Origin: Burkholderiales bacterium
GTDB taxonomy: Bacteria > Pseudomonadota > Gammaproteobacteria > Burkholderiales > Burkholderiaceae_C
Length of the DNA stretch: 64,000 nt
Assembly: GCA_947464185.1 (NCBI GenBank)
Contig: CANHVY010000006.1
Span: 37,033 to 101,032, forward strand
Direction: 5' to 3'
The notes below the pieces were generated by a model. That model ran no database searches, was not told the origin of the DNA, and saw only the letters and a program-made list of their open reading frames with translations. Below, one piece after another: positions 1 through 4,665 of this stretch; position 1 is the stretch's first letter, and each line of letters starts with the position of its first letter. The position numbers and the translations under genes were made by a program.

Positions 1-350
1 AGGCGCTTCAGGCCCTCCACGTCCGGCATCACGTGCGTCTTGCCCGCCAGCCACAGGTCCGGGCACTCGTCACCGCGAGCACCGGCGTGGGCGCGGATCA
101 TCTCGCCCAGCGTCACCTCGCCCAGGGGCAGCGGCACGCGGTTCCAGGTCGCACCATGGCTGACGGGATAACGGCCGGTGTAGTAGCTCATGCGGCTGGG
201 GCCGCACACACCGCTGCTGACATAAGCCTGCGAGAAGCGCACGCCACGCGCAGCCAGGGCGTCGAGGTTCGGCGTGTGCAGGTGCGGGTGGCCGGCGCAG
301 GACAGGTGGTCCCAGCGCAGCTGGTCGGCCATGATGAAGAGGACGTTCAT
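1..350 (-). CDS. Sulfatase family protein, N-terminal part (truncated by window edge)
   Basis: Minus-strand translation from ATG at 350: MNVLFIMADQLRWDHLSCAGHPHLHTPNLDALAARGVRFSQAYVSSGVCGPSRMSYYTGRYP...; sulfatase N-terminus with C-G-P-S-R active-site signature. Confidence 0.85.
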   Translation of the reverse strand, partial: MNVLFIMADQLRWDHLSCAGHPHLHTPNLDALAARGVRFSQAYVSSGVCGPSRMSYYTGRYPVSHGATWNRVPLPLGEVTLGEMIRAHAGARGDECPDLWLAGKTHVMPDVEGLKR

Positions 351-2072: not shown

Positions 2073-2222
2073 ATGCATCGGTCCGTATATCTGGGCCACA
2101 CGAGTGAGGGGCACCGCCTGCACATCACCTTCACATTGCGAGGTGCGGGATCCTTGATCCGGGTGATTTCGGCACGGGATATGCACCGCAAGGAGAGAGC
2201 TGTTTATGACCAAACGCCGTAA
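2073..2222 (+). pseudogene. Truncated BrnT-like toxin C-terminus
   Basis: 49-codon ORF MHRSVYLGHTSEGHRLHITFTLRGAGSLIRVISARDMHRKERAVYDQTP*; matches the BrnT C-terminal pattern (LGHT..G..L.V.FT.R...IRVISAR.M...ER..Y); N-terminal half absent; overlaps the following antitoxin start. Confidence 0.65.
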
Positions 2223-2475
2223 GCCCATCCCCCGCTTCGGGACCGAGGGGCAGGAACGTGCGTTCTGGGAAAGCATGGGTCAGGATTCCACCGGCTTCGT
2301 CGATTGGGGCGGCGCGCAACGGGTGACACTGCCCAACCTCAAGCGTTCGACCAAGACCATCTCGCTGCGCCTGCCCCAGCACCTGCTGGACGCCGTGAAG
2401 GCCGCGGCCAACGCCCGCGACGTGCCCTATCAGTCCCTGATCAAGGTCTGGCTGCAGGAGAAGGTAGGTACTTAG
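2206..2475 (+). CDS. CopG/BrnA-type antitoxin
   Basis: KPIPRFGTEGQERAFWE...VDWGGAQRVTLPNLKRSTKTISLRLPQHLLDAVKAAANARDVPYQSLIKVWLQEKVG; classic CopG antitoxin family. Confidence 0.85.
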   Translation: MTKRRKPIPRFGTEGQERAFWESMGQDSTGFVDWGGAQRVTLPNLKRSTKTISLRLPQHLLDAVKAAANARDVPYQSLIKVWLQEKVGT

Positions 2476-4665
2476 GCGCGCTCTGGCGCCCCAGCGCTGA
2501 CCCCTTCCACCGCGACTTCAGCAGAACATGACCGTTCCACGTCCTGGGCAGCGAGCAGCCCCGCCGCTCGGTCCAATGGCACCACGGTAGCCAGCGTCGT
2601 GCCGCCTCGCGGCTGCAGGCGCGGCGGGAAGACTGCGATCTTCTGCGCCGGCGCCAGGCGCGTCTCGCGCCCGGGCTCAAGGTCGCGCTCGTTCACGCCA
2701 GCCACCGGAGCGCGCGCCACGCCGTCGACGATCTCCAGGTCCCACCACCAGCGCTTGACGGGATTACGCTCGCCGCCGCCCGTGCGGTCGTCGTGTTCAA
2801 TGAGATCACGCCGAGCTGCCGCGCTTTCGATGGCCTGCCACAGCCGTTGCTCGTACTCCACCAGGTCTTCGCTGTTGAAGGGGCAGGTCTTCATGCAGCG
2901 GCCGCAGGCCGAGCCCTTCATGTTGGTCAGCCGGTACTTGCCGCACTTCTCCACGTCCGGCTTCCAGATTTCATAGCCGTTGAAGACAGTCTTGGGGCCG
3001 TAGGGGATGGCGTTGCAAGGGCATTCGCGCGCGCACTTCAGGCACTGCGCGCAGGTGTCCTGCAGGCCGAAGTCGATGGGCTGGTCCACGGCCAGGGGCA
3101 GGTCGGTGGTGAAGACTACCGACTTCGAGCGCGGACCGATGAAGGGGTTGAGCACCAGCTCGCCAATGCGTGACAACTCGCCCAGCCCGGCCATCAGCAC
3201 GGCCGGCAGGTGCAATACCTCGGAGTGGGCGTTGGAGTGGGCGCGGGCGCCAAAGCCCATGCGCCTCACATGCGCGGCCATCAGCCCGGCAATCAACGCG
3301 CCGCGCAGGTAGGCCCGCATGGACTGCGCGCCAGAGATCCAGTCGTCGCCCGAGGCGCCCTCCATGGTCTCGAAACCCTGGTCGATCAGCATCACCACCG
3401 CAAACCGGTGGTAGGGCTCGATGGGCCGGCCTTCTACCTCGTCATGGGAATACCACATCCAGGGCTCGGCCTCGCAGATGCCCACGAAGTCCGCCCCGAG
3501 GAAGTGGCCCAGCGCCTTGATGGACTGCGCGTTGCGCAGGGGGTCTGACAGGTTCCCGCCCCAGCCCGTGGGCTGCAGCTTTTCGCGCGAGCCCTGCAGC
3601 GGCACCAGTCCCCGGATGAGCGGCGTCATCGCCAAGGCCAGCGGGTGCTTGATCGCAAAGCGGCTGCGCTCCTGCTGCGCGCGCGGGCCCAGGTCACCGG
3701 CCAGGGCGCGGGTGAACAGGTCGGCGCGCTTGGGCACGCGCTGGATGCGCGCGCGGTCGATCATCGTGGTGGGTTGCGCCACGCGGCGAATGCGCTCCAT
3801 GGGCGAGCGCCCCAGGTGCACGGGCCGCTGCGCCAGGTCATCGTCCTCGAAACCCGGCCGCGTGCCGCCCACGCCGAGCCAGGCCTCGGTGTCGGGCCAG
3901 TCCAGCGATTCGTCGGCCGCGATGGGCACATCGCAGGCGATGTCCAGATCGGTGGTGACCACGCCGATGCGAAAGCCTCGGCGCGAGAACGGCATTTGCA
4001 GCACCCCATCCACGGCGCGTGCCACGCCAGCGCGCTGGGCCAGCGCCGGCAGGTCCAGCGCGGTGTCACATGCCACATGCCACATGCCCGCGGGCCTGCC
4101 AGCCCAGCGTCCGCAGATAGCCCGCCAACACGGCTGCCACCTCGGCGCAGCGCAGGTCAGTGCGCTCGACGTTGCTGCCCCGGACCCAGGCGTCCCCCGG
4201 CTCGCCCTCTGCCGGCTCGCGGCCGAACTCGATGAGGAAGACCAGGGCGTGGGTGTGAGCAGGGGTGTCAACGGGGGTGTGGGTAGCAGCTTGCGCGGCC
4301 GTGGCAGATGCAGTGGTGGCGGTGGGCGCATAGCCACCCGCACTTCCCCGTTCGGCGAGATTCAGGCGGCAAACCCCCGCCAGCGTCGCGTCCAGGAAAT
4401 AGACCGCGGCCTTCAGGTGCTGCTGGCGCGCCACCAGGTCATCCGGGATGGGCGCGCGGGCCGAAGCTACGGCACCGTCAAGCACAGGGGACAACAGGCG
4501 ACGGTACTCGGGAACGCTGCCTGACACCGCATGGACACCCGGACTGCAGCCCTCCCCCGGCTGCACGGCCGGTTGCGGGGGCGCTTCAGGGTCGCGCCGC
4601 AGGCGTTCGGTGGGCAACACGCCCATGTGAACGGGCCGGTCGCGGTGGGAGTGCAGGCGGGACAT
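2472..4665 (-). pseudogene. Reductive-dehalogenase-like 4Fe-4S protein, frameshifted at a 7-bp tandem repeat (possibly phase-variable)
   Basis: 5' part in frame of ORF 4066..4692 (ends ...GWQARGHVACGM*), 3' part in ORF 2472..4343 (VACDTALDLPALAQRAGV...TCAQCLKCARECPCNAIPYG...CGRCMKTCPFN); removing one CACATGC unit joins them in frame. Confidence 0.75.
4067..4087. repeat. (CACATGC)x3 tandem heptamer inside reductive-dehalogenase-like gene
   Basis: cacatgc cacatgc cacatgc read directly. Confidence 0.95.

Follow-up and report, generated by a model that had tools for sequence, protein, structure and literature searches.

A 7-bp tandem array at the frame break of a predicted catabolic reductive dehalogenase gene in a Rubrivivax-group bacterium

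The rdhA locus and its neighbours

We analysed a 64,000-nucleotide stretch of DNA (the window) from a Rubrivivax-group bacterium, whose nearest relatives are likewise Rubrivivax-group genomes. One end of the window holds a reductive dehalogenase gene, rdhA, in two parts that meet at a short tandem array, along with several neighbouring genes:

3..350, minus strand: 5' end of a sulfatase gene (PF00884, 152.5 bits) that extends past the window edge, with 96% identity in the rdhA cluster of locus L034
402..1376, minus strand: TctC/Bug-family solute-binding protein gene, which also adjoins rdhA in the nearest relative, L034 (61% identity)
2073-2221 and 2206-2475, plus strand: fragment of a BrnT toxin gene, truncated at the N-terminus, followed by an orphaned BrnA antitoxin gene (PF12441)
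2472..4085, minus strand: 3' part of rdhA, encoding the predicted catalytic corrinoid and 2x[4Fe-4S] core (TIGR02486, 4ras_A, six active-site residues), with an open frame from within the array down to the stop codon at 2472
4066..4665, minus strand: 5' part of rdhA, encoding the putative vestigial duplicated cobalamin-fold domain (MSRLHSHRDRP...GHVACGM*), with its stop codon inside the array
4067..4088, minus strand: tandem array, three copies of GCATGTG on the coding strand (CACATGC on the plus strand) plus one base, 22 bp and perfect, the site of the frame break

The original prediction had called the gene a reductive dehalogenase from the sequence alone, and homology bears this out. The C-terminal part aligns with residues 170-690 of the NpRdhA chain (PDB 4RAS, E=2.5e-244) at about 66% identity, keeps all six of the active-site residues named for that enzyme (F291, S422, M423, Y426, K488 and R552 in NpRdhA numbering; PMC10463259) and contains the [4Fe-4S] motifs CxxCxxCxxxC, at residue 345 of this part, and CGRCMKTCP; its TIGR02486 score of 147.7 bits lies slightly under the cut-off of 160.35. 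The N-terminal part aligns both with the core's own residues 223-284 and with the NpRdhA residues before 170, and a vestigial duplicated cobalamin-fold N-domain has been described for catabolic RdhAs (PMC10463259). The likely start is the ATG at 4665 (MSRLHSHRDRP), the same as in the orthologues; inspection revealed no twin-arginine leader (TAT signal) there, and the window gene carries no fused C-terminal reductase domain. Enzymes of the NpRdhA type are oxygen-tolerant and vitamin-B12-dependent, and by its sequence the gene is predicted to be a full-length catabolic reductive dehalogenase of this type, without a reductase domain. Because the single frame that a full-length enzyme needs is broken at 4067-4088, we place it in the NpRdhA subfamily as a disrupted gene and do not count it among the working members.

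The window gene is the only rdhA found in the assembly (a draft of 169 contigs, 95.94% complete). One further TIGR02486 match, on contig 38 with 34.6 bits, was the only other one in the genome; it was considered as a compensating rdhA and set aside as probable QueG-like background, since this model gives sub-cut-off matches in 11 of 14 control genomes.

The TctC-type gene and the sulfatase gene lie downstream of rdhA on the same strand, and the linkage of all three recurs in L051, L056, L058 and L066, which are less similar to the window than L034 is (L034:4031-10770). This arrangement suggests a shared catabolic or uptake cluster, which, as a speculation, might act on sulfated halo-aromatics. 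Between rdhA and these two genes lie a MarR gene, the BrnA antitoxin gene and the truncated BrnT fragment; as an apparently full-length BrnT-BrnA pair is found on the other side of rdhA in L009 (about L009:3402-3980), the module seems to have moved and decayed beside rdhA.

The heptamer array and the frame break

On the plus strand, the array consists of three perfect CACATGC units and one further C, embedded in the minus-strand gene. TRF calls it at 4067-4088 with 3.1 copies and a 100% match, and the three exact units occupy 4067-4087, precisely where the original prediction had placed them, at the end of the upstream frame. That frame runs from the ATG at 4665 to ...WQARGHVACGM*, its stop at 4066 falling inside the array. 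The downstream frame (...VACDTALDL...) passes through the array and ends at 2472; it is already open upstream of the array, to 4343, and therefore does not begin there. Because 7 equals 1 modulo 3, the N- and C-terminal parts are mutually out of frame at three copies. With two copies the length at this point equals that of the orthologues, which carry both parts in one frame; the proposals that the two frames are one gene broken at the array, and that one unit fewer restores the frame, are thus both upheld.

Dinucleotide shuffles of the window never produced the 21-mer array, which occurs at a single site in its own genome. We estimated the repeat background from 20 stretches of 20 kb together with the window and its flank, using eight unit lengths that all break the frame (5, 7, 8, 10, 11, 13, 14 and 16 bp), and the array was the only perfect one of at least three copies in 476 kb; heptamers in two copies number 46 in 464 kb, or roughly one per 10 kb. 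Since it is never given by shuffling and is unique in 476 kb, we take the array to be a real duplication product.

That the array stems from faulty assembly or consensus calling, or that it is the minor allele in a mixed population whose real allele is intact, is unlikely. The draft state of the genome, which may be a metagenome bin as many related genomes are, and the fully constrained appearance of the gene would fit such an origin; against it, a 22-bp array is far below short-read and k-mer lengths, and the exact gain of a 7-bp unit in an array shorter than reads or k-mers is an unusual mode of assembly error.

The position of the array bears on whether the broken gene could still work. It lies mid-gene, at neither promoter nor terminus, in an indel-tolerant linker whose length also varies among intact orthologues (+8 aa in L039, +10 aa in L043 and L010), so that the break falls at the boundary of vestigial domain and core, about residue 170 of NpRdhA. 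Speculatively, translation might restart at an in-frame ATG within the array (4085-4083), which overlaps the upstream stop (the ATG lies 17 nt before it), and produce the catalytic core as a separate chain, which would pair with the N-domain; alternatively, low-level +1 frameshifting at AUG-UGA-C might yield some full-length protein. A split gene that still functions would also accord with the lack of relaxed selection described below. However, the Shine-Dalgarno-like GGCAGG upstream is only weak, the RNA fold around the ATG is unremarkable (z -1.17), the restart codon exists solely through the repeat and no orthologue is split at that point, and we regard this alternative as highly improbable.

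Intact orthologues and the age of the lesion

Comparison at the site covered 43 locus rows of intact orthologues, some of which duplicate the same genome. None of them carries the repeat, and all read straight through, for example ARGHVQGDTALDL. The relatives' frames are uninterrupted (679-786 aa), with identities from 86-91% down to about 50%; the closest, G112/L034 and G011/L009 (86-91%), have unbroken QARGHVQGDTALDL and RARGHVQGDTALNL, respectively, with repeat-free codons at the site such as CAT GTG CAG GGT GAC. In 88 loci compared, the N- and C-terminal parts share one frame in all but one, L049; a further rdhA, that of L080, has a frame break elsewhere, further downstream in the gene. 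L049 and L080 both come from metagenome bins, and their breaks lie at other gene positions than that of the window. The original prediction had proposed to compare copy number in related genomes, and here the comparison found the repeat absent from the orthologues and its 21-mer absent from the other 80 genomes of the genus (present in 1 of 81). As the intact orthologues lack the repeat, the lesion is private to the window genome among the genomes compared.

A search of a plasmid collection for a near allele found none; the matches were all partial and only 60-80% identical, among them the BhbA plasmid of Comamonas sp. 7D-2. Within the genus, several genomes additionally hold RdhA-like ORFs (L013-L021), 1081-1282 aa long and 45-51% identical, which are probably of the reductase-fused, self-sufficient type.

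Selection on the C-terminal part is indistinguishable between the window lineage and intact lineages. Its dN/dS is 0.18 and 0.18 against two intact relatives and 0.19 between intact relatives, and lineage-specific changes number 65 synonymous to 24 nonsynonymous in the window, compared with 24 to 7 and 35.5 to 11.5 in the two intact relatives. As these ratios match those of intact lineages, decay has not begun; and because constraint is as strong as in intact relatives and the window rdhA showed no further break of the frame, the lesion is recent, and we rejected an old pseudogene, for which relaxed selection would be expected. Normal purifying selection thus acted on the gene until very recently and may still do so; a switching or a still-functional split gene would show this pattern too.

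Synonymous divergence from the nearest relatives is uneven along the gene, with a dS of about 0.87 in the N-domain (4090-4665) and about 0.39 in the catalytic part (2472-4064). This two- to threefold excess is also present between two intact relatives (0.85 versus 0.28); recombination and alignment effects are both possible sources, and the data do not separate them.

In its title, the original prediction had leaned towards a phase-variable switch, in which slippage of the 7-bp array would toggle rdhA on and off in the population. Contingency loci are expected to have many repeat copies, to be conserved or variable among relatives and often to lie in promoters or at gene ends. As in such a locus, the perfect array sits within an ORF and its unit, not a multiple of three, changes the frame; the match of the two-copy length to the orthologues and the absence of decay would also suit a switch. 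Yet the array is private to one genome, occurs in no orthologue and is not maintained among relatives, which is the outcome that the original prediction itself had named as pointing to a simple one-off mutation; it has three copies against the 10-63 found in the promoters of Haemophilus hmw1/hmw2, a known 7-bp system (PMC10127715); and it is placed mid-gene, where coding-region repeats are suppressed, in contrast to their enrichment close to gene ends (Lin and Kussell, as cited in PMC4692102). There is no other comparable array in 476 kb, and the product would be a cytosolic catabolic enzyme and not a surface structure. Beyond the frame arithmetic nothing speaks for switching, which we hold to be very improbable.

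From the original trio of switch, inactivating duplication and assembly error, it is the second that we favour: the array is probably a recent, one-off tandem duplication of 7 bp, which disrupts an ordinary catabolic gene, and no dedicated contingency locus. Replication slippage or a small template-switch event would have added a 7-bp unit to the variable linker that joins the vestigial N-domain to the catalytic core, leaving three GCATGTG copies and a +1 frame. Where orthologues have 12 nt (for example CAC GTG GCC GGC in L040), the window has CAT GTG GCA TGT plus 7 nt. Either substitutions may have produced a two-copy ancestor to which slippage then added the third copy, or one template-switch event may have written the whole array; the data do not separate these routes. 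Translation from the normal start would end in the array after about 199 residues, and because of this a full-length enzyme is not expected. Both the mutational mechanism and the loss of enzyme activity are what we infer from the sequence. As a counterpoint to a one-off duplication, a perfect three-copy array stands out in this genome, with one in 476 kb, and three-copy arrays are somewhat more prone to slippage than unique sequence.

The locus thus reads as a clean case of a bioremediation-relevant enzyme lost recently from one lineage, with the gene still intact in its relatives, and cautions that short out-of-frame repeats are not always switches. That a minimal three-copy heptamer reversibly switches a dehalogenase, or that a two-chain enzyme arises by restart inside the repeat, is very improbable; if either were true, an environmental bacterium would be bet-hedging its breakdown of halogenated aromatics. 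Switching, if demonstrated, would mean contingency control of a pollutant-degrading enzyme; a limited literature search found no precedent for such control, no phase-variable rdhA and one frameshifted rdhA.

Comparison with known systems

NpRdhA of Nitratireductor pacificus pht-3B (PDB 4RAS) has the same two-domain plan as the window gene, with a duplicated N-domain, no reductase domain and the same active-site residues; the window gene differs in losing its frame where the two domains join. The N. pacificus cluster includes ferredoxin and ferredoxin-reductase genes (PMC10463259), of which none was identified among the window neighbours. Self-sufficient RdhAs of the BhbA/JtRdhA type share the homologous core; their fused phthalate-dioxygenase-reductase domain has no counterpart in the window gene. 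With Haemophilus influenzae hmw1A/hmw2A the array has in common the 7-bp unit, but there the 10-63 promoter copies are experimentally variable (PMC10127715), as opposed to three mid-ORF copies in one genome. The gene is of a known kind, and a frameshifted rdhA already has a precedent in Dhaf_2620 of Desulfitobacterium hafniense DCB-2, which is likewise truncated by a frameshift and has a relative with an intact copy (PMC4511579); unlike the window gene, it belongs to an organohalide-respiring host and carries another lesion, near the N-terminus.
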